Part shown: positions 19,981 through 29,588 of the stretch, piece after piece
How positions within the stretch are numbered: the stretch's first letter is position 1
Layout of the letters: each line of letters begins with the position of its first letter
NCBI RefSeq assembly: GCF_011758765.1
Contig: NZ_JAANOU010000001.1
Span: forward strand, 3,162,001-3,226,000
Direction: 5' to 3'
From: Amycolatopsis viridis
Lineage (GTDB): Bacteria > Actinomycetota > Actinomycetes > Mycobacteriales > Pseudonocardiaceae
DNA: 64,000 nucleotides
Notes under the pieces: generated by a model
Seen by the model: the letters and a program-made list of their open reading frames with translations, nothing else
Databases searched by the model: none
Told to the model about the DNA's origin: nothing
Translations under genes and position numbers: made by a program

Positions 19981-20427
19981 ATGCCTCTCGACGGTGTGTA
20001 CGAACCCAGCACGATGGAGTACTCCCGCAAGCAGGTGGCGGTGTACGAGGGCTCCGGCGGTACGTGGGGCACCACCGCGCACGGCCTGCCCGTCATCGTG
20101 CTGACCACGGTCGGCCGGAAATCCGGGAAGCTGCGGAAGTCGCCGCTGATGAAGGTCGAGCACGAGGGCGTGTACGCGGCCGTCGCCTCGCTCGGTGGCG
20201 GCCCGAAGCACCCGCTGTGGTACCACAACGCGCTCGCCGAACCGCGGGTCGAGGTGCGCGACGGCACCCGGGTGTTCGACATGGTCGCGCGGGAGGTGGA
20301 CGGCGAGGAGCGCGAGGTGTGGTGGCAGCGCGCGGTGGCGACCTACCCGCCGTACGGCGAGTACCAGAAACGCACCGAGCGCGTCATCCCGGTCCTGCTG
20401 CTGGAGCCCGCGCCGGAACCGCACTGA
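19981..20427 (+). CDS. Ddn-type deazaflavin (F420)-dependent oxidoreductase
   Basis: A 148-residue split-barrel protein of the nitroreductase/deazaflavin-dependent family. [17 protein letters not shown] and [12 protein letters not shown] followed by VEVRDG are the diagnostic segments that bind F420 in Mycobacterium Ddn and FDORs. Its presence implies the host makes F420. ATG at 19981 chosen because a GAAAGGA ribosome-binding site precedes it. Its last 44 bases overlap the end of the convergent sulfatase-like gene. Confidence 0.92.
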
Positions 20428-21958
20428 GCTGCGGGCCGAAGGCGGCCAGGAACCGGTCGCGGAACGCGCTCATCGGCCAGACCGGGGCTGACGCCGCGGG
20501 ACGGAGACCGGGCGTCCAGCCCCAGCCACCGATGCGGGCGAGCACGGCCGGATCACGCGCCACGAGGGTCACCGGCACGTCCCGGTCCGCGCCGGGGCCG
20601 GTCACCGCCGGGTCCGGCTGGTGGTCGCCGAGGAACACCAGCACCAGATCGTCCCCGCCGTAGGTCTCCACGTAGGAGATCAGCGCCGACAGCGAGTAGC
20701 GGACCGCCTCGTCGTATCCGGCGGTCCCGCCGGCCGGCCGGTCCGTCGCCGAGGCGAACACCGAGCCGTCGCCGAGGGCGTCCCAGCCGACCAGCCGGGG
20801 CACCGCCGTCCACGGCCAGTGGCTGGACACCAGGTCGATCTCGGCCATCACCGGCGGGTGGCCCGGGGCGAGCTCGGCGCGCTGGAACGCCGACAGCGTG
20901 AACTGGTCGGGCATCGCGGCGTAGGCGAAACCGGGGCCGGAGTAGCCCAGGTCGCGACCGTCGTAGAGCCGGTCGAACCGGTACACCGCGCCCTCCGGCC
21001 AGGCGGCGGCGTTCTCCGGTTGCACGTTCACGGTGCGCCAGCCGGCGCGGGCGAAGGCGCCGGACAGGGTCAGCCGGTCGCTTGTCACGAACGTGCGGTA
21101 GCGCTGCTCGTTGTCGACCCACAGCCCGGATTCCAGGGTGGAGTGGGCGAGCCAGCTGCCGCCGCCGGTGGTGGCGGAGGTGAGGAACGCGCTGCGCGCG
21201 CCGAACCCGTCCGCCTGCAGCCGGTTCGTCGCCGACTCGAGCAGCGCGTCGACCCCCGGGCCGGCCAGCGCGGCGCGGCCGTAGCTCTCCACGAAGGTGA
21301 GCAGGACGTCCTTGCCGCGCAACGCGGTCAGCAGCCCCGCCGGGGCAGTGGCGCGGAAGGCGTCGGTGGTCATGGCCGCGGCGAACTCCCGCCGGTCGGC
21401 CAGGTCGGCGGCGGCACCGCGCACCTCGCGGTAGGCCAGCGCGCTGGTGGTGTGCGCGGCGAGCGGCAGGCCGGCGAGGGCCGCGACGGTCCAGGCCACC
21501 GTGAACACGGCCACCACCCGTGCCGCGACCCGGCGGTGCTCCCCCGCGAGGCGTGCCACGCGCAGCGCCGCCAGCGTCGTCAGCACCACCAGCGTCAGCA
21601 CCCCGAACCCGGCGCCCGCCAGCGTGCCGATGCGCGCCGCACCACCGAGCAGGCTGAGCGCGGGCCCGGCGAAGCCCCAGTCGAACACGGGGTGGAACGG
21701 GCGGCCGAAGGCCTGGGAGAACCCGATGTCGGCGACCTTGAGCAGCGTCAGCACCCCGAGCAGCGCACCCGCCACGGCCGCTGTGATCCGGCGTGCGCGT
21801 GGCGGCAGGACCAGCATCAGCGCGGCACCGGCCACCGCCTCGACCGGGAGGACCAGGAACGCCGCGGGCCGGGTGCCCACCAGGCTGTCCGGCAGGACGA
21901 GCGCGGCGAGGACGAGCCCGCAGGCCAGGACGTCGGCCGTCACCCGGCGCACGGTCAC
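20384..21958 (-). CDS. Membrane-anchored sulfatase/alkaline-phosphatase-fold enzyme
   Basis: A 524-residue protein with four or five N-terminal transmembrane helices (to about residue 165) and then an extracytoplasmic domain of the LTA-synthase/sulfatase clan. [14 protein letters not shown] carries the metal-binding Glu and nucleophile region, [12 protein letters not shown] the His/Asp, and [13 protein letters not shown] the late Asp-His metal pair. Relatives transfer or hydrolyse phospho-head groups on lipids. GTG start chosen at a four-base GTGA overlap with the CDP-alcohol phosphatidyltransferase stop, so the two are coupled and likely act on the same lipid. Confidence 0.82.
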
Positions 21959-22653
21959 CGCGTCCGCCACAGGGTCCGCACGTCCCGCCCGAACGACCAG
22001 GCCAGCGCCGCGAGCGCCACCGCGGTCCCGGCCAGCGCCGCGCCACGCGGCAGCACCCCGGCAACCACCACGAGCAGCGTGACACCTTGCGCCGCCGCCA
22101 CCGCCTTGCGCGCCCGGTCGGGCGCCAGCGGCCCGCGCAGCCACGGCAGAACCCAGCCGGCCGCCACGAACGCGTACCGCATCGCGCCGATCAGCAGCAC
22201 CCACGGTCCCAGCACCACCGCGACCGGCACGCACAGCACGAGGATCAGGACCGCGTCCGCCTCCAGGTCGAACCGCGCCCCCAGCGGCGACACCGTCGCG
22301 GTGCGGCGCGCGACCCGGCCGTCCACGGCGTCCAGCGCGAGCGCGAGCGTCGCGAGCCCGGCCGGGACCGGCCCGGACGACCCGGCGGCGACCAGGGCAA
22401 GCACGCCGCCGGTGAGGGTGGCGCGAGCCAGCGTGACCCGGTCCGCCGGACCCAGCGCGACCCGGCCGGCGCGGCGCAGCGCGCCGGTCAGCAGCACCCA
22501 CAGCGCGCCGCCGTAACCGGCGCCGGCCACCCAGCCGGCCGGCGTCAGCCCCACGGTCAGCGCGAGCCCACTCACCAGCACGAGCAGTGCACCGGCCGCC
22601 ACGGCCTGTTCCTGGCGGGCCGGAATCGTGCGAGGCTGGGTCTGGACGATCAT
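21955..22653 (-). CDS. CDP-alcohol phosphatidyltransferase
   Basis: A 232-residue, six-helix membrane enzyme. The complete catalytic signature D-x2-DG-x2-AR-x8-G-x3-D-x3-D is present as [10 protein letters not shown] followed by [10 protein letters not shown]. Such enzymes join a CDP-diacylglycerol (or CDP-alcohol) to an alcohol acceptor. The acceptor is unknown; phosphoinositol, glycerophosphate or an unusual polar molecule made by the neighbours are all possible. Start ATG with AAGGGA upstream. Only 27 bases separate its start from the divergent dehydrogenase gene. Confidence 0.92.
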
Positions 22654-22680
22654 CGCGGTCCCTTCGCCGGAGGTGTGCCC

Positions 22681-23676
22681 ATGACACGTGCCGCACGGGC
22701 GTTCTGGTTCAACCCGCCCGGGCCGGGCGAGATCCGGGCCGTGCCGCTGCCCGCGTGCGGAGCCGGCGAGGTCGAGGTGCGGACGCTGTTCTCGGGCATC
22801 AGCCGGGGCACCGAGACGCTCGTCTTCCGCGGCGGCGTGCCGGCGAGCCAGCACGAGCTGATGCGGGCCCCGTTCCAGGAGGGCGAGTTCCCGGGGCCGG
22901 TCAAGTACGGCTACCTCAACGTCGGTGTCGCCGAGGACGGGCCGCCGGAGCTGGTGGGCCGCACGGTGTTCACGCTCTACCCGCACCAGACCCGGTTCGT
23001 CGTGCCGGCGAGCGCGGTGACCGTGGTACCCGAGACGGTGCCCGCCCGGCGGGCGGTGCTGGCGGGCACGGTGGAGACCGCGGTGAACGCGCTGTGGGAC
23101 GCCGCCCCGCTGGTCGGCGACCGGATCGCGGTGGTCGGCGGCGGCATGGTCGGCTGCGCGGTCGCGGCCCTGCTCGCCCGGTTCCCCGCGGTGCGGGTGC
23201 AGCTGGTCGACGCCGACCCGGCACGCGCGGCGGTGGCGGCGGCGCTGGGCGTGGAGTTCGCGCTGCCGGCCGACGCGCGGCCCGGCTGCGATCTGGTGGT
23301 GCACGCGAGTGCCACGGACGCGGGCCTGGCACGGTCGCTGGAACTGCTCGCCCCCGAAGGCGAGGTGATCGAGCTGAGCTGGTACGGCGACCGGCCGGTG
23401 AGCGTGCCGCTGGGCGGGTTCTTCCACTCGCGCCGGCTGGCGGTCCGCGCCAGCCAGGTCGGGGCGGTGGCCGCGGCGCGGCGGTCGCGGCGCACGCACG
23501 CCGACCGGCTCGCGCTCGCCCTCGAGCTGCTCGCCGATCCCGTCTTCGACATCCTGATCACCGGCGAGTGCGCGTTCGAGGACCTGCCGTCGGTGATGCC
23601 GAAGCTGGCCTCGGGCGAGCTCCCCGCCCTGTGCCACCGCGTCGTCTACCCGGAGGAGGGGTCGTGTTCAGCGTGA
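22681..23676 (+). CDS. Medium-chain dehydrogenase, BchC-like
   Basis: A 331-residue member of the medium-chain dehydrogenase superfamily. The N-terminal GroES-like domain has [17 protein letters not shown], the form found in BchC-type dehydrogenases, and the Rossmann domain has [16 protein letters not shown]. The cysteine cluster of the structural zinc site in classical alcohol dehydrogenases is missing. It should oxidise or reduce an alcohol with NAD(P). GGAGG seven bases before the ATG fixes the start. Its end overlaps the PTPS-like gene by 13 bases, opening a plus-strand operon. Confidence 0.88.
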
Positions 23677-24074
23677 CCGTGCGGGACCACCTGATGGTCG
23701 CCCACAGCTTCCGCGGGGAGGTGTTCGGGCCGGCGCAACGCCTGCACGGGGCGACGTTCGTGGTCGACGCGACGTTCCGCCGGCCCGAGCTCGACGCGGA
23801 CAACATCGTGGTCGACATCGGGCTCGCGACCCAGCAGCTGGGCGCGGTGCTGGGCGAGCTGAACTACCGCAACCTCGACGAGGTACCGGAGTTCGCCGGG
23901 ATCAACACCTCGACGGAGTTCCTCGCGCAGGTGATCGCCGACGCCCTCGCCGAGCGCGTGCACGACGGCGCACTCGGCGAGGGCGCACGCGGACTGGCCG
24001 GGATCACGGTGACGCTGCACGAATCGCACGTCGCGTGGGCGAGCTACGACCGTGATCTTCGTCCAGCCCGGTGA
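23664..24074 (+). CDS. 6-pyruvoyl-tetrahydropterin synthase/QueD-like T-fold protein with altered active site
   Basis: A 136-residue T-fold protein. [14 protein letters not shown] gives the first zinc His region and [17 protein letters not shown] carries the Glu that anchors the pterin-like ring. In place of the usual HGHN it reads LHGATF, so one zinc ligand is missing, and the protein has no cysteine, so the family's catalytic Cys is absent. From memory, the S. coelicolor homolog SCO6650 likewise lacks zinc and the catalytic triad yet keeps the pterin pocket. GTG start overlaps the dehydrogenase stop; GAGGAGG lies upstream. It is probably a non-canonical pterin or pyrimidine enzyme. Confidence 0.85.
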
Positions 24075-25107
24075 CGCCACCGACCCGGAGCTGCCCAGCG
24101 GCGGCAACGTCTTCGACCGGCGGATCAGCCGGGAGCTGACCGCCCTGGGCCGGACGGTGCGGGAGGTCGCGGTCCCCGGATCGTGGCCGCATCCGGACGC
24201 CGGTGCGCGCGCCCGGCTGGGCCGCGAGCTCGCTGCGGCCGCACCGGGCACGCTGGTCGTGCTCGACGGGCTGGTGGCCTGCGGGGTACCGGAGATCGTG
24301 GTGCCGCACTCGGCCCGGCTGCGGCTGGTGGTGCTGGTGCACATGCCGCTGGGCGAGGAGACCGGTGCCGATCCCGCGCTGGACGCCCGGGAGCGGGCGA
24401 CGCTGCGCGCGGCCCGGACAGTGGTGACGACGAGCGCCCGGACGGCGGAGCGGCTGCGCCGGCACCACGGCCTCGCCCGCGTCGAGGTGGTGGTGCCCGG
24501 GACGGACCCGGCGCCGCCGTCCTCCGGTGACGAACTGTTGTGCGTCGGGTCGCTGACCCCGCACAAGGGGCAGGACGTGCTGGTCGAGGCGCTGGCGGCG
24601 GTGGCAGACCTGCCGTGGCGGTGCCGGCTGACCGGGCCGGTGCGCCGCAGCCCCGCGTTCGCGGCCCGCGTGCGCCGGTCGATCGATGCGCACCGCCTGA
24701 CCGGCCGCGTGACGATCACCGGGCCGCTCACCGGGCCGCGGCTGGAGCGGGCCTACGCGCGCGCCGGGCTGCTGATACTGCCGTCGCGGTCGGAGACCTA
24801 CGGCATGGCCATGGCCGAGGCGCTGGCGCGCGGCATCCCGGTCCTGACCTCCGCGCCCACCGAAGTGCTGGGTGGGGTGCTGGGTGAGGTGGCGGGTGAG
24901 CCCGGGCAGCTGCCGGGCCTCGTGGTCCCGCCGGGCGACGCGGACGCGCTGGCACAGGCGCTCCGGTCGTGGTTGACGTCCCCGCGGTTGCGGCAGGCGC
25001 TGCGCGAGGCGGCCCGCTCACGCCGCGGCACGTTGCCGACGTGGGAGACCGCCGCACGGGTGATGTCGCGGATCCTCGGTGAACCGGAAGCCGGTGGTGT
25101 TCCGTGA
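24052..25107 (+). CDS. Glycosyltransferase family 4 (GT-B)
   Basis: A 351-residue GT-B enzyme. The donor-site half has [21 protein letters not shown] near residue 160 and [20 protein letters not shown] near residue 245, where the E-x7-E motif binds the nucleotide sugar. No membrane helix. GTG start overlaps the PTPS-like gene by 23 bases and the next gene overlaps its end, so all four plus-strand genes form one operon. It likely glycosylates the small molecule made by this locus, though the acceptor is unproven. Confidence 0.9.
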
Positions 25108-25921
25108 CAAGGAGGTGGCACCCGACCGATGGGACGGCGCCGGTCCCGGCACCACCCGCTGCGCACCGGACTGGCTGGCGCTGCGCGAGCCCGCCGACGC
25201 CGCCGCCCGGGCGGCCGCGCTGCTCGGCCCGCTGCGCGCATCCCTGAGCACCGTCGGCGGCCGGCTGGTCATCCGGGACGTGGGGTGCGGCACCGGCTCG
25301 ATGGCGCGCTGGCTCGCGCCCCGGCTGCCGGTCCCGCAGCACTGGATCCTGCACGACCGCGACCCCGCGCTGCTCGCCCGCGCGTCGATCACCGGGACGG
25401 GCGTCACGGTGGAAACGCACCACGGCGACCTCGGCCGGCTCGATCTCGGGGGCACCTCGCTCGTCACCGCGTCGGCGCTGCTCGACCTGCTCACGCTGTC
25501 CGACGTGGACGGCCTGGCGGGATCGTGCGCCGCCGCCGGGTGCCCGGCGCTGCTGACCCTGTCGGTCACCGGGCGGGTCGAGCTGACCCCCGCCGACCCG
25601 CTCGACGCGGAGATCGCCGCGGCCTTCGCGGCCCACCAGCGGCGCAACGGGCTCCTCGGCCCGGATGCGGTCGCCATGGCCGCACTCGCGTTCGAACGCC
25701 GGGGTGCGGTGGTGCGGCTCGCGCCCAGTCCCTGGCGGCTCGGGCCGCGGCAACGGGCGCTGACCGAACGGTGGTTCCGCGGCTGGGTCGCCGCCGCCCG
25801 GGAGCACGCACCGAACCTCGACACCGCGGCCTACACCCGGAGCCGCCTCGACGCCTGCGCGGCCGGCGAGTTGCGCGCGGTGGTGCACCACACCGACCTG
25901 CTCGCGACCGGAGCGTCCTGA
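25079..25921 (+). CDS. SAM-dependent methyltransferase
   Basis: A 280-residue class I methyltransferase. Motif I is VIRDVGCGTGSMARWLA near residues 64-80; the acidic residue of motif II follows as LHDRDPALL, and SLVTASALLDLLT gives motif IV. The C-terminal third is a helical extension. The start may be the GTG at 25079 or a GTG six codons later; both overlap the glycosyltransferase end. Last gene of the 22681-25921 operon; followed by the 21-bp repeat array. Confidence 0.85.
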   Translation: MNRKPVVFRDKEVAPDRWDGAGPGTTRCAPDWLALREPADAAARAAALLGPLRASLSTVGGRLVIRDVGCGTGSMARWLAPRLPVPQHWILHDRDPALLARASITGTGVTVETHHGDLGRLDLGGTSLVTASALLDLLTLSDVDGLAGSCAAAGCPALLTLSVTGRVELTPADPLDAEIAAAFAAHQRRNGLLGPDAVAMAALAFERRGAVVRLAPSPWRLGPRQRALTERWFRGWVAAAREHAPNLDTAAYTRSRLDACAAGELRAVVHHTDLLATGAS

Positions 25922-25992
25922 TGCCACCCGCCCGCGCCGACCCAGCGGCGCCCAACAGCCCACACCCCGCCACCACCGGCCAACCCCAGCCC

Positions 25993-26205
25993 GAGCAGCA
26001 AACACAGCGCCACGAGCAGCAAACACGCCGCCACCGCGTGTTTGCCGCTCCGCGCGGCGTGTTTGCCGCTCCGCGCGGCGTGTTTGCCGCTCCGCGCGGC
26101 GTGTTTGCCGCTCCGCGCGGCGTGTTTGCCGCTCCGCGCGGCGTGTTGGCTGCTCCGCGCGGCGTGTTTGCTGCTCCGGGTGGGGTGTTGGCTGGGCGGG
26201 GCTAC
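25993..26205. repeat. 21-bp tandem repeat array with inverted copies
   Basis: Five identical 21-base units start at 26038, 26059, 26080, 26101 and 26122 (each begins GTGTTTGCCGCTCC and ends GCGCGGC). Diverging copies follow at 26143, 26164 and 26185. Two copies in the opposite orientation, also 21 bases apart, stand at 25993 and 26014 (GAGCAGCAAACACGCC). Each unit contains GCCGC-TCCGC-GCGGC, which can form a hairpin, and the two orientations can pair with each other. It lies between the convergent ends of the methyltransferase and creatininase-like genes and fills most of the 345-base gap there. Confidence 0.92.
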
Positions 26206-26266
26206 GTGGTGGCCGCGCCGGTGACCGCCGTGGTCCCGCTGGTGGTCGCCGCGCTGCCGGGGATCC

Positions 26267-26971
26267 TCACTCTCCCGCTCCGAGGACGGGCAGGTGCGCC
26301 CGGAACGACCCGGCCAGCGCGTCCAGGACCGCCCGGCCCTTGTCCGCACTCGCCCGTGACGGATGACCGGCCACGCCCGACTTGCTGTAGGGAGCCAGTC
26401 CGAGCGAGAGGAGGTGGCGCAGATCGCCGGGTGCCGAGTCCGCGGCCGCGTAGTCGGGCCTGACCACCTCCGGGCTGGTGGCGAGCAGGAGGGAGGTCTC
26501 CAGCTCGCCCGCGTGCATGTCCTCGTCGTTGGTGGTCGTCACGCCCGCCGCGGCCCGCGCGGCCTGCCACTCGCCGTAGCTGGGGAACAGCACCATGGCG
26601 CCGCGGGCCTGCTGGACGACGTTGGCCAGGACGTGGTTGCCGCCGTGCCCGTTGACCAGCACGAGCTTGCCGGCACCGGAGGACCGCAGCGACGCCGCGA
26701 TGTCCTCCACCACCGCGATCAGCGTGGTGGCCGAGATGCTCACCGTGCCGGGCCAGGCCGCGTGCTCGTGCGAGCAGGAGATCGTGACCGGCGGCAGCAG
26801 CCAGAACCGGTGTTCCGCGGCGATGCGCTCGGCCACCGCGGACGCGATCAGGGTGTCGGTGGTCAGCGGCAGGTGCGGGCCGTGCTGTTCGAGGCTTCCG
26901 ACGGGCAGGACGGCCACGCCCGGCGCGCGGTCGCGCACGTCGGCGGTCGTGTCCGGCGGGAGCGGAGTCAT
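26267..26971 (-). CDS. Creatininase-family amidohydrolase (ArfB/MftE/creatininase fold)
   Basis: A 234-residue metal-dependent amidohydrolase. All metal-binding motifs are present: VGSLEQHGPHLPLTTDT, VLVNGHGGNHVLANV and DMHAGELETS. The superfamily includes creatininase, the mycofactocin peptidase MftE and the archaeal ArfB deformylase that removes formate from the first product of GTP opening. Being divergent, by 55 bases, from a GTP cyclohydrolase II-like gene makes a deformylase role attractive. ATG opening MTPLPPD chosen. MftE identity is unlikely since no other mycofactocin genes are adjacent. Confidence 0.85.
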   Translation of the reverse strand: MTPLPPDTTADVRDRAPGVAVLPVGSLEQHGPHLPLTTDTLIASAVAERIAAEHRFWLLPPVTISCSHEHAAWPGTVSISATTLIAVVEDIAASLRSSGAGKLVLVNGHGGNHVLANVVQQARGAMVLFPSYGEWQAARAAAGVTTTNDEDMHAGELETSLLLATSPEVVRPDYAAADSAPGDLRHLLSLGLAPYSKSGVAGHPSRASADKGRAVLDALAGSFRAHLPVLGAGE

Positions 26972-27026
26972 CGCTTCAGGTATACCGGGGAGGGCAAGTT
27001 CCCGGTCGATGATGAGGGGGAACACC

Positions 27027-27638
27027 GTGCGTGAGCAGGACATCGCCGAATCGACCCTGGGCACGCGCCGCGGCGAGTTCCGCGCCGTGGCCTTCGCCGA
27101 CGGCGCCGAGCACCTGGCGCTGGTGCACGGCCCCCTCCCGCGGGACGACGTGCTGGTGCGGGTGCACTCGGAATGCCTCACCGGAGACGTGTTCGGCGCG
27201 GTGCGCTGCGAGTGCGGCGAACAGCTGCACGCCGCACTGGACGCGATCGTCGCGGAGGGCAGCGGCGTGCTGGTGTACCTGCGCGGGCACGAGGGACGCG
27301 GCATCGGCCTGGTGGCGAAGGTGCGCACGCACGTCCTGCAGGACGAGCACGGCCTGGACACCGTCGATTCCGCCACGACCCTCGGCCTGCCGGTGGACGT
27401 GCGCGACTACGGCCCGGCGGCGCGGGTGCTGTGGCACCTCGGTGTGCGGTCGGTGCGGCTGATGTCGAACAACCCGGACAAGATCGCGGCGCTGGAGTCG
27501 CACGGCATCCGGGTGGCGGCGCGGGTGCCGCTGCTGGCTCCCGCGAGCCCGCACAACATCCGGTACCTGACCGCCAAGCGCGACCGGCTCGGCCACGTGC
27601 TGCCGCAGGTGGACGCCTTCGACGTCGCGGAGTCCTGA
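27027..27638 (+). CDS. GTP cyclohydrolase II-like enzyme with His at the Tyr105 position
   Basis: A 203-residue stand-alone RibA-type protein with no DHBP-synthase domain. Zinc cysteines Cys50, Cys61 and Cys63 are intact (HSECLTGDVFGAVRCECG), and RGHEGRGIGL and SNNPDKIAALE bind GTP phosphates and base. The residue equivalent to E. coli RibA Tyr105 (KIRAY) is His102 here (KVRTH). In S. coelicolor SCO6655, a Met at this place is reported to stop the reaction at the formylaminopyrimidine. GTG start with AGGGGG six bases upstream. It is followed two bases later by an IMPase-like gene. Confidence 0.88.
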   Translation: MREQDIAESTLGTRRGEFRAVAFADGAEHLALVHGPLPRDDVLVRVHSECLTGDVFGAVRCECGEQLHAALDAIVAEGSGVLVYLRGHEGRGIGLVAKVRTHVLQDEHGLDTVDSATTLGLPVDVRDYGPAARVLWHLGVRSVRLMSNNPDKIAALESHGIRVAARVPLLAPASPHNIRYLTAKRDRLGHVLPQVDAFDVAES

Positions 27639-27639
27639 C

Positions 27640-28410
27640 GTGGACCACGCCGACCTGCTGCCGGTTGCCCGCGAGGCCGTCGCGATCGGACGGCGGATCT
27701 TCACCTCACGCGCGCCGCGGTCGGTGACCGAGAAGAGCGAACGCGACCTGGTGACCGACATCGACCTCGCCGTCGAGGACGCGGTGCGCGAGTTCCTGGC
27801 GCGGGAGACCCCGGAGATCGGTGTCGTCGGTGAGGAGCACGGCGGCGACCGCGGCCCGCGGTGGTGGGCCCTGGACCCGGTGGACGGCACCGCGAACTTC
27901 GCGCGCGGCATCCCGCTGACCGGGATCTCGCTGGCCCTGGTGTCGGGCGAGCGCAGCGTGGTGGCGGCGATCGACCTGCCGTTCCTGGACACGGTCTACA
28001 CCGCGGCCACCGGTCACGGCGCGTTCGCCGGGGACACCCGGATCGGCGTGTCCGGGGTGCGCGATCTGGCCGGCGCGATGGTGTCGCTGGGCGACTTCGC
28101 CATCGGCGAGGACGCAGGACCGAAGAACCGGTTGCGGCTGTCCCTGCTCGAGCAGCTGGGTGCGCGGGCGCAGCGGGTGCGGATGATCGGCACGGCGGCA
28201 GCCGACCTGGCCTGGGTCGCGCACGGCCGGCTGGACGCCACGATCATCCTGTCGAACCTCCCGTGGGACACGATGGCCGGTGTGCTGCTGGTCCGCGAGG
28301 CCGGCGGGCTGGTGCTCGACACCGACGGCAGCGAGCACACCGTGTCCTCGGCGTCCACCGTCGCGCTGTCGCCCGGCCTCCGGGACGTGGTGGTGCCGCT
28401 CCTCACTTAA
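27640..28410 (+). CDS. Inositol-monophosphatase-family phosphatase
   Basis: A 256-residue phosphatase. Metal and catalytic motifs are all present: GEEHGG at residues 64-69, DPVDGTANF at 79-87 and WDTMAGVLLVREAGG near residue 213. Family members dephosphorylate inositol phosphate, histidinol phosphate or PAP. The GTG start is one base after the cyclohydrolase stop, so the pair is cotranscribed. Removing the phosphate from a GTP-derived ribosyl-pyrimidine intermediate would fit the locus. HisN or inositol phosphatase remain alternatives. Confidence 0.88.
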   Translation: MDHADLLPVAREAVAIGRRIFTSRAPRSVTEKSERDLVTDIDLAVEDAVREFLARETPEIGVVGEEHGGDRGPRWWALDPVDGTANFARGIPLTGISLALVSGERSVVAAIDLPFLDTVYTAATGHGAFAGDTRIGVSGVRDLAGAMVSLGDFAIGEDAGPKNRLRLSLLEQLGARAQRVRMIGTAAADLAWVAHGRLDATIILSNLPWDTMAGVLLVREAGGLVLDTDGSEHTVSSASTVALSPGLRDVVVPLLT

Positions 28411-28478: not shown

Positions 28479-29588
28479 ATGCAGTTCGGGATCTTCTCAG
28501 TCAGCGACGTGACCACGGATCCGACCACCGGCCGGACACCGGACGACACCGAGCGCGTGCGGTCGATGCTGACCATCGCCCGGCACGCCGACCAGGCCGG
28601 GCTCGACGTGTTCGCCACCGGCGAGCACCACAACCCGCCGTTCGTCGCGTCCTCCCCCACCACGGTGCTCGGCTACCTGGCGGGCGTCACCAAGGACATC
28701 GTCCTGTCCACCTCGACCACCCTGATCACCACGAACGACCCGGTGAAGATCGCCGAGGACTACGCGATGCTGCAGGTCATCTCGAACGGGCGGATGGACC
28801 TGATGATGGGCCGCGGCAACACCGGCCCGGTCTACCCGTGGTTCGGCCAGGACATCCGGCAGGGCATCCCGCTCGCGATCGAGAACTACGCGCTGCTGCG
28901 CCGCCTGTGGGAGGAGGACGTGGTCGACTGGGAGGGGAACTTCCGCACGCCGCTGCGCGGGTTCACCGCCACTCCGCGCCCGCTCGACGGGGTGCCGCCG
29001 TTCGTCTGGCACGGCTCGATCCGCAGCCCGGAGATCGCCGAGCAGGCCGCCTACTACGGGGACGGCTTCTTCCACAACAACATCTTCTGGCCGATGTCGC
29101 ACACGAAGAAGATGGTGCACTTCTACCGCCAGCGGTTCGAGCACTACGGCCACGGGCCGGCCGACACCGCGATCGTCGGCCTGGGCGGGCAGGTGTTCAT
29201 GCGCCGCAACTCCCAGGACGCCTGGAACGAGTTCCGCCCGTACTTCGACAACGCCCCGGTCTACGGCCACGGCCCGTCGATGGAGGAGTTCACCGCGACG
29301 ACCCCGCTGACCGTCGGCAGCCCGCAGCAGGTGATCGACCGGTACGCCACGATGCGCGAGCACGTCGGCGACTACCAGCGGCAGCTGTTCCTCGTCGACC
29401 ACGCCGGCCTGCCGCTCAAGACGGTGCTGGAGCAGATCGACCTGCTCGCCGGGGAGGTCGTGCCGGTGCTGCGCAAGGAGATGGAGGCCCGGCGGCCGGC
29501 GCACGTGCCGGCGAACCCGCCGAGCCACGCCGACCGCGTCGCCGCGGCGCGCGCGAAGGCCACCGAGCAGGCGCCGGCCGCCCACTGA
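28479..29588 (+). CDS. LLM-class flavin-dependent oxidoreductase
   Basis: A 369-residue TIM-barrel protein of the bacterial luciferase-like superfamily (CE1758-type). GLDVFATGEHHNPPF near the start, LSTSTTLITTNDPVKIAEDY and VISNGRMDLMMGRGNTG are the expected flavin-site segments. It probably uses FMN (or F420) to oxidise an unknown substrate. GGAGG nine bases before the ATG. It lies alone between the GTP-derived locus and the acyltransferase and has its own upstream inverted repeat. Confidence 0.9.
   Translation: MQFGIFSVSDVTTDPTTGRTPDDTERVRSMLTIARHADQAGLDVFATGEHHNPPFVASSPTTVLGYLAGVTKDIVLSTSTTLITTNDPVKIAEDYAMLQVISNGRMDLMMGRGNTGPVYPWFGQDIRQGIPLAIENYALLRRLWEEDVVDWEGNFRTPLRGFTATPRPLDGVPPFVWHGSIRSPEIAEQAAYYGDGFFHNNIFWPMSHTKKMVHFYRQRFEHYGHGPADTAIVGLGGQVFMRRNSQDAWNEFRPYFDNAPVYGHGPSMEEFTATTPLTVGSPQQVIDRYATMREHVGDYQRQLFLVDHAGLPLKTVLEQIDLLAGEVVPVLRKEMEARRPAHVPANPPSHADRVAAARAKATEQAPAAH

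Follow-up and report, generated by a model that had tools for sequence, protein, structure and literature searches.

Several described systems come close to the locus analysed here. One is the Streptomyces coelicolor region SCO6650-SCO6655. Spoonamore and Bandarian reportedly found that its cyclohydrolase SCO6655 makes the formylated pyrimidine FAPy owing to a Met in place of a Tyr, and that the 3d7j structure is without zinc and without the catalytic triad. PMC2853524 identifies SCO6655 as a GTP cyclohydrolase II. According to Table 3 of PMC3610822, expression of SCO6652 is about 17-20 times higher in differentiated mycelium at 48 h and 72 h (log2 ratios 4.3 and 4.1) than in 16 h mycelium; if the numbering follows gene order, we infer that SCO6652 is the methyltransferase. 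Another is BrbF, presented in PMC9478397 as a creatininase-family FAPy/AFRPP formamidase en route to riboflavin. In that paper the GTP-opening partner of BrbF is still to be found, and two more distant BrbF homologs failed to replace it, so that a creatininase fold is no proof of FAPy deformylation.

Layout of the locus in Amycolatopsis viridis

A preliminary description of the window, a stretch of 64,000 nucleotides from A. viridis, had listed nine genes in tight units, and our check recovered all nine ORFs at the coordinates it gave:

20384..21952 (start codon uncertain, about 21952), minus strand: membrane sulfatase-fold protein, LtaP/LtaS-like, putative phospho-headgroup transferase
21955..22653, minus strand: CDP-alcohol phosphatidyltransferase (PF01066 CDP-OH_P_transf, 42.3 bits)
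22681..23676, plus strand: MDR dehydrogenase lacking the usual catalytic-zinc residues (ADH_zinc_N, 24.4 bits)
23664..24074, plus strand: PTPS-like T-fold protein, SCO6650 ortholog (PF01242 PTPS, 81 bits)
24052..25107, plus strand: GT4 glycosyltransferase (PF00534, 92.4 bits)
25079..25921, plus strand: SAM-dependent methyltransferase (PF13649 Methyltransf_25, 31.7 bits)
25922..26266, no strand: gap with 21-bp tandem repeats, where most relatives have a flippase-like LPG_synthase_TM gene
26267..26971, minus strand: creatininase-fold amidohydrolase, proposed FAPy/AFRPP deformylase (PF02633, 217 bits)
27027..27638, plus strand: GTP cyclohydrolase II variant with a switch His, proposed to stop at FAPy (PF00925, 203.5 bits)
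27640..28410, plus strand: inositol-monophosphatase-family phosphatase (PF00459 Inositol_P, 166 bits)

By their coordinates, the MDR and T-fold, the T-fold and GT4, and the GT4 and methyltransferase reading frames overlap; spacing is 1-2 bases both between the sulfatase-fold and CDP-alcohol genes and between the cyclohydrolase and phosphatase genes. In the core-gene tree the locus groups with an Amycolatopsis locus. Riboflavin, folate and queuosine genes, already reported as absent, were indeed not present among the ten flanking genes scanned (14.1-32.9 kb of the window). HMM searches of all ORFs found no flippase-like LPG_synthase_TM gene in the window locus, against 72 of 80 named loci that have one; the repeats in the gap amount to 7.3 copies at 26036-26189. 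A candidate remnant of the flippase gene at 26221-26286 was rejected because the suggestive tblastn search had been run with composition correction off and the family HMM gave it 1.8 bits, no better than other window frames.

We propose that the window carries one actinomycete's copy of a cross-domain biosynthetic system leading in six steps from GTP, an explanation to which, taken whole, we give about an even chance. About ten genes in changing combinations probably turn GTP into a sugar-bearing, probably membrane-linked small molecule.

Spread and co-occurrence of the gene set

The locus had been called an orphan, which it is not: the gene set recurs in Streptomyces, Micromonospora, Rhizobiaceae, Thiodictyon, haloarchaea and others, and 17 annotated loci place it also on proteobacterial and haloarchaeal plasmids. 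Nor does the core pair show the independent occurrence of homologs that the preliminary description had named as grounds for refutation. In the class draw, an even draw of 148 genomes with MDR matches counted at E up to 1e-40, the MDR dehydrogenase was found in 22 genomes, each of which also has a T-fold match (23 genomes have one), and the two genes were adjacent at 22 of the 23 MDR places. Counting by HMM on all ORFs, the 80 named loci contained the MDR dehydrogenase in 79 cases, GT4 in 78, the methyltransferase in 79, the CDP-alcohol phosphatidyltransferase in 78, the flippase-like protein in the 72 given above, GTP cyclohydrolase II in 66 and the creatininase in 62. The cyclohydrolase was not in the fetched stretch of 14 of them, several being ended by a contig edge. 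An inositol-monophosphatase-family gene was linked in six of the 80, and also in Palleronia (L178). The nine window genes are thus one conserved system and not a chance grouping, with conservation far above chance. Four proteobacterial loci additionally hold a cytochrome b gene, of the b561 family in the one scanned.

Among 15 core loci of the phylum draw, GT4 is present in 14 and RibD_C in 12, only two reach the HMM thresholds for the CDP-alcohol phosphatidyltransferase, methyltransferase or flippase-like protein, and GTP cyclohydrolase II is not in the fetched stretch of 12. No CDP-alcohol gene was seen in loci L177 and L186, and since L186 has from the set the MDR, T-fold and methyltransferase genes alone, lipid and sugar tailoring is not a feature of every locus. 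Such loci would suit a reading in which the end product of the same GTP-derived pathway is secreted and soluble, a glycoside of a pyrimidine or pterin, and the neighbouring CDP-alcohol and sulfatase-fold genes have a separate lipid role. Set against it is the CDP-alcohol phosphatidyltransferase, which accompanies nearly all of the named loci and is annotated in 11 of the 17 plasmid loci, across three phyla including haloarchaea; we consider a soluble product rather unlikely.

From GTP to a candidate pyrimidine or pterin

The GTP-opening step takes three forms. In one, the GTP cyclohydrolase II has Tyr as its switch residue; in another, a cyclohydrolase II with a different residue there (non-Tyr) is accompanied by a creatininase; the third is the archaeal cyclohydrolase III (annotated in three Haloarcula loci, with 272.6 bits to Pfam for the one scanned). 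The Tyr we take to be needed for deformylation by GTP cyclohydrolase II. Alignments give the window enzyme KVRTH, with His, as against KxRAY; the residue is M, H, Q, C or L in creatininase-bearing loci, and the zinc-ligand pattern C-x(9-11)-CxC is kept in 85 of 85 homologs. All 69 non-Tyr loci have a creatininase within the fetched stretch and none of the 18 Tyr loci does, a count that pools three draws and the plasmids, with the same loci possibly entered more than once, and from which L123, L124 and L126 (operons of the riboflavin type that have no MDR gene) and L114 (Tyr, no creatininase, contig ending before MDR) had been dropped. As the non-Tyr enzymes form one clade (support 98), this split represents few independent events. 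Genome-wide, no creatininase match in the seven Tyr genomes of the class draw goes below E 5e-30, and the ten genomes with creatininase-type clusters have matches at 8e-79 or better. A close creatininase occurs in 14 class-draw genomes at 15 places (a second piece in G212 not counted), four of these genomes being without the T-fold gene. Because the Tyr locus L094 sits among Pseudonocardia His loci (support 98), the trees, read without a formal count, suggest that the GTP-opening module was swapped at least twice.

The creatininase homologs keep NGHGGN in 70 of 74 cases and a HAGExET-type motif in 69 of 74, and the window protein falls below the NCBIfam cut-offs for ArfB (36.9 against 180) and for MftE, the mycofactocin creatininase (144.7 bits against 172). 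Its co-variation with the cyclohydrolase, a coupling absent from the preliminary description, fits a separate deformylase by analogy with BrbF. The His variant would be a cyclohydrolase that opens GTP and halts at FAPy (AFRPP), and the creatininase-fold enzyme would take off the formyl group to give 2,5-diamino-ribosylaminopyrimidinone phosphate.

The next step would be reduction to the ribitylamino compound without deamination, by a RibD-type reductase acting here in trans; we rate this a little below an even chance. The reductase is missing from the locus and found in relatives: 22 of the 80 named loci have it linked, as do 9 of the 15 class-draw loci and the 12 of 15 phylum-draw core loci already mentioned, and 8 of the 17 plasmid loci carry it by annotation. 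This part, like the flippase-like one, had not entered the preliminary description. The three reductases scanned (L111, L116, L172) contain no deaminase domain. A. viridis encodes outside the locus a reductase-deaminase 63% identical to L111, which may serve riboflavin only; of the 11 cluster genomes that have no linked copy, 10 hold a strong homolog in trans, and so do 2 of 7 cluster-free genomes. The reductase in trans was dropped as an obligatory part and kept as a possible one, given those two genomes and G008, which has an MDR/T-fold/GT4 core with neither a linked reductase nor a strong unlinked homolog. The RibD_C tree is rough and includes fragments, apparently L035, L038, L095 and L097 among others.

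Early riboflavin steps (GTP opening and a RibD-type reductase) are represented, and BrbF (PMC9478397) offers a precedent for an alternative module that supplies precursors of riboflavin or F420. Against this stands the finding that no deaminase, lumazine synthase or riboflavin synthase accompanies the early enzymes in the nine genes, the ten flanking genes or the annotations of the 17 plasmid loci. A second cyclohydrolase II, presumably RibBA, lies elsewhere in the genome (C1:2509143, a 474-aa frame), and we know of no riboflavin role for the T-fold, GT4, methyltransferase or lipid genes. Such a supply module therefore seems very improbable.

The T-fold protein matches PDB 3d7j (SCO6650) with E 9e-73, so that the S. 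coelicolor relatives which the preliminary description named are real, SCO6655 being the cyclohydrolase noted above. With QueD/PTPS it shares the T-fold, the Pfam PTPS match and the pterin-anchor Glu. In the alignments it has HGA for HGH, GPA for GxC and NY for DH; the catalytic Cys and the Asp-His positions are gone, as is one zinc His in the window's subfamily, the residues being named by their roles in PTPS/QueD. The gene is annotated 6-carboxytetrahydropterin synthase in 16 of 17 plasmid records (6-pyruvoyl tetrahydropterin synthase in the other), and this name, with a weak NCBIfam QueD match, would place the locus in queuosine or 7-deazapurine synthesis. Without the Cys and Asp-His positions the name is doubtful; moreover, the QueD score of 34.8 bits falls short of the 89.25 cut-off, and genome-wide A. 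viridis has no other PTPS-family protein. We regard the queuosine reading as largely refuted and scarcely credible.

Returning to the pathway from GTP, its least certain step would begin with oxidation of the polyol chain by the MDR dehydrogenase; the T-fold protein would then act on the oxidised product, perhaps closing a pterin ring. The retained Glu is presumably one that binds a 2-amino-4-oxopyrimidine. Against the proposal, the two GTP cyclohydrolase I genes of A. viridis already supply pterin precursor, so that making a plain pterin by another route would be odd. The MDR match is weak (ADH_zinc_N cut-off 31.8), with GISRGTE and YGYLNVG where we would expect the catalytic-zinc motifs, which we read as losses.

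Tailoring, proposed product and described systems

The later steps are assigned from gene families: the phosphatase would remove phosphate, the GT4 enzyme add a sugar and the methyltransferase a methyl group, after which the CDP-alcohol phosphatidyltransferase would join the product to lipid, and action at or across the membrane would fall to the LtaP-like protein, joined in relatives by the flippase-like one. The presence of glycosyltransferase, methyltransferase, CDP-alcohol phosphatidyltransferase and LtaP-like genes suggests a glycosylated, lipid-linked product. The idea of the preliminary description, a single pathway that begins with GTP and includes tailoring by glycosyl, methyl and lipid groups, is supported in outline. 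The catalytic motif of the CDP-alcohol phosphatidyltransferase is kept in 92 of 93 homologs; PMC13118837 mentions such an enzyme in another, teichoic-acid-type region. The GT4 family profile is nearest Tll1590 (6kih), which we take to be a sucrose-P synthase, MshA and PimB/PimA; a pterin glucosyltransferase like BGluT was rejected, its match being weak and behind many others. The sulfatase-fold gene was counted at 9 of the 15 class-draw T-fold loci and at 10 of the 80 named loci; three Rhizobiaceae loci also carry it by annotation. Its assignment as a membrane sulfatase-fold enzyme comes only through relatives, L104 reaching 30.8 bits to Pfam Sulfatase and the family profile matching lipoteichoic acid primase 4uop (E 4e-5), whereas the window protein itself, at 15.7, stays under the cut-off of 25. 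Among PDB sequences, LtaP is the single match to the sulfatase-fold protein with E of 0.1 or less.

A bolder reading, which we consider improbable, is that actinobacteria, proteobacteria and haloarchaea share a lipid of a new class, anchored in the membrane, glycosylated, pterin-like and possibly redox-active, whose ring is made without GTP cyclohydrolase I. The RibD-type reductase would reduce C1' of the ribosylamine, the dehydrogenase oxidise C2' and the T-fold protein close the ring, the three between them taking the place of the Amadori step. In this reading the cytochrome b gene of the four proteobacterial loci hints at electron transfer.

The core pair occurs in about one in seven class-draw genomes and on plasmids of proteobacteria and haloarchaea, and in the open-access literature we found no product described for a locus of the window or SCO6650-SCO6655 type, while its marker T-fold gene stands in records as a queuosine enzyme. 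The exchange of three GTP ring-opening forms at one kind of locus is a natural experiment that, if our explanation is true, accounts for the half-way stop of some GTP cyclohydrolase II enzymes and points to what the missing partner of creatininase-type formamidases may look like. The S. coelicolor copy puts the question within reach in a laboratory strain.

Compared with described systems, the window sulfatase-fold protein resembles LtaP by a weak match, and the GT4 profile lies near MshA and PimA/B by a general one. The numbering SCO6650-SCO6655, our basis for the S. coelicolor order, is consistent with gene order in other Streptomyces loci; the window differs in its switch His, the phosphatase beside the cyclohydrolase and the absence of a flippase-like gene. 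With the BrbF/ArfB formamidases the window creatininase shares the fold and metal-site motifs, the likeness to BrbF being taken from its published description. BrbF serves riboflavin, whereas the window creatininase adjoins a candidate GTP-opening partner, in a pathway that would lead elsewhere.

The locus and its conserved core

The nine-gene locus of the preliminary description proved to be complete: ORF calling with Pfam/NCBIfam searches recovered all nine genes in the window. Two further genes lie at its borders:

19981-20427, convergent to the sulfatase-fold gene: F420H2-dependent quinone reductase family gene (PF04075)
28479-29588, same strand as the phosphatase gene and directly downstream of it: Luciferase-like monooxygenase gene (domain scan)

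The 3′ end of the PF04075 gene has a 44-base convergent overlap with the sulfatase-fold gene. Positions 26036-26189 hold 7.3 tandem copies of a 21-bp unit, with 95% matches; the exact unit occurs five times at that site and once elsewhere in the A. viridis genome. This genome encodes two cyclohydrolases I and two cyclohydrolases II (GCHII), namely the window copy and a longer one at 2509143, and a search of it for PTPS-family proteins found none besides the T-fold protein of the window.

Searching with the T-fold protein gave 491 confirmed stretches, and family HMMs were run on all ORFs of the best 80, all actinobacterial, which are biased to close relatives because they are best matches only, and some of which are cut by contig ends. 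In these best 80 of 491 loci, T-fold was found in 80, MDR dehydrogenase in 79, methyltransferase in 79 and GT4 in 78. On the membrane and lipid side, CDP-alcohol phosphatidyltransferase was found in 78, the flippase-like LPG_synthase_TM in 72 and the sulfatase-fold protein in 10, and the remaining families were GCHII (66), creatininase (62), RibD_C (22) and phosphatase (6). In two Amycolatopsis loci (L109 and L110), no families were recovered beyond CDP-alcohol phosphatidyltransferase, MDR, T-fold and methyltransferase. In L078 and L079, the phosphatase gene is followed downstream by an additional GT4 of that family. In S. coelicolor, SCO6652, listed as a hypothetical protein in Table 3 of PMC3610822, has log2 values of 0.8, 4.3 and 4.1 at 24, 48 and 72 h of differentiated mycelium. 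Judged by its position, SCO6652 is probably the methyltransferase of the cluster.

A less biased, even draw of 148 genomes from the class gave T-fold matches in 23, of which 21 were strong (E 3e-37 or better). MDR (E up to 1e-40) was found in 22 genomes, every one among these 23; the sole genome without it, G290, has a T-fold match of just 41 residues. The MDR gene adjoins the T-fold gene at 22 of 23 MDR places, the exception being G260, where each of the two genes sits at the end of a different contig. Across the phylum, 48 of 198 genomes had T-fold matches, and stretches were retrieved from 28: MDR is present in 15, L114 ends before it, and 12 are without it, the aligned ones among these resembling ordinary QueD. 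Outside the class, among remoter relatives (T-fold identity about 31-40%), 11 stretches retain the RibD_C-MDR-T-fold combination, 10 of them with GT4 above the HMM threshold.

In alignment, the window T-fold subfamily has the motifs FGPAQ..HGATF..NLDE..HES and is without the Cys, the Asp-His and the third zinc His, all likewise missing from proteobacterial members. Six aligned relatives from the phylum draw and seven haloarchaeal proteins keep three His, with Cys and Asp-His missing. The T-fold protein retains a Glu, which we take to be the pterin anchor. MDR lacks the usual zinc residues.

Exchange of the GTP-opening step

Work on SCO6655 reportedly put FAPy formation down to a missing Tyr, and the enzyme reportedly regained deformylation once Tyr was restored. 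The window GCHII has His at the corresponding (switch) position of the alignment. Among loci with core genes and GCHII, a creatininase was present in the fetched stretch in 68/68 with a non-Tyr enzyme (M, H, Q, C or L) versus 0/13 with Tyr (Fisher p 3e-15, ignoring relatedness of loci). Extra loci, five proteobacterial (Tyr, without creatininase) and one from Streptomyces (Met, with creatininase), bring the totals to 69/69 and 0/18. Genome-wide searches of the 7 Tyr genomes of the class draw gave no creatininase match with an E-value below 5e-30.

In the GCHII tree, the non-Tyr enzymes form one clade (98) and the actinobacterial Tyr cluster enzymes another (100), with those of L094 and L139 in a third. 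Since L094 groups with creatininase-bearing Pseudonocardia loci in the core-gene tree (98), this suggests that the GTP-opening module changed at least twice. Five different residues occupy the switch position within the creatininase clade, a drift that would be predicted were Tyr now dispensable. An independent precedent, as described in PMC9478397, is BrbF, a bacterial creatininase-family formamidase acting on FAPy; two remoter homologs were unable to substitute for BrbF in that study. Four genomes lacking the T-fold gene also have close creatininase homologs, with 57-68% identity in the main match; no other cluster families were found in the fetched stretches (L164-L168), some of which start at a contig end.

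Plasmid copies and parts absent from the window

T-fold matches occur in 29 records of a plasmid collection. We inspected 19, two of them unannotated, and counts are therefore out of 17. All 17 have a dehydrogenase gene at most 1 kb upstream of T-fold; also annotated are GT4 (15), CDP-alcohol phosphatidyltransferase (11), a RibD-family protein (8) and cytochrome b (4); the T-fold protein itself is named 6-carboxytetrahydropterin synthase in 16. A GTP-opening enzyme is annotated in eight, as GCHII in five and as GCH III in three. The GCH III genes lie inside the cluster in three Haloarcula (by annotation, with a Pfam check of one), and in H. sinaiiensis a creatininase gene lies some 6 kb from the cluster. 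Three of four annotated Rhizobiaceae loci, L190 being the exception, have a near-complete set including sulfatase, flippase-like protein and cytochrome b. The cytochrome b gene adjoins the RibD-type gene in proteobacterial copies L172, L174, L176 and L189; Pfam confirmed PF01292 cytochrome b561 for L174, the copy scanned.

By a rough tree, RibD_C reductases of the locus fall into about three lineages. The best NCBIfam match is archaeal diamino-pyrimidinone reductase for L111, below cut-off (137 vs 186), and ribD_Cterm for L116, above it. The nearest homolog in A. viridis lies outside the locus (L141, C1:1850116) and is a RibD whose domains stand in inverted order, the reductase preceding the deaminase. 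No RibD_C match was found in the vicinity of the cyclohydrolase II at 2509143; therefore, L141 may be the riboflavin enzyme. Of 11 cluster genomes that lack a linked copy, 10 have strong RibD_C homologs, as do 2 of 7 cluster-free genomes. The window locus also has no LPG_synthase_TM gene (PF03706, 121 bits in L033), and the sole PF03706 protein of the genome did not match the HMM of the cluster family.

Proposed pathway and known systems

Co-variation and precedent make it probable that GTP would be opened by the cyclohydrolase and the formyl group removed by a separate enzyme. More tentatively, linkage points to a possible reduction without deamination by a RibD-type enzyme. Pterin ring closure is one option for the MDR and T-fold step. 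From the enzyme families, the product would likely be glycosylated and methylated; the CDP-alcohol phosphatidyltransferase, LtaP-like and flippase-like proteins tilt the balance slightly towards its being linked to a lipid. Our search of the open-access literature found no described product of the pathway.

Pieces of the system are already known from S. coelicolor. As far as open-access searches show, the whole set and its spread to proteobacteria and haloarchaea are new, as are the exchange of its GTP step between three forms and its RibD_C, flippase-like and sulfatase-fold components. We place the system among GTP-derived pathways of the pteridine/flavin type.
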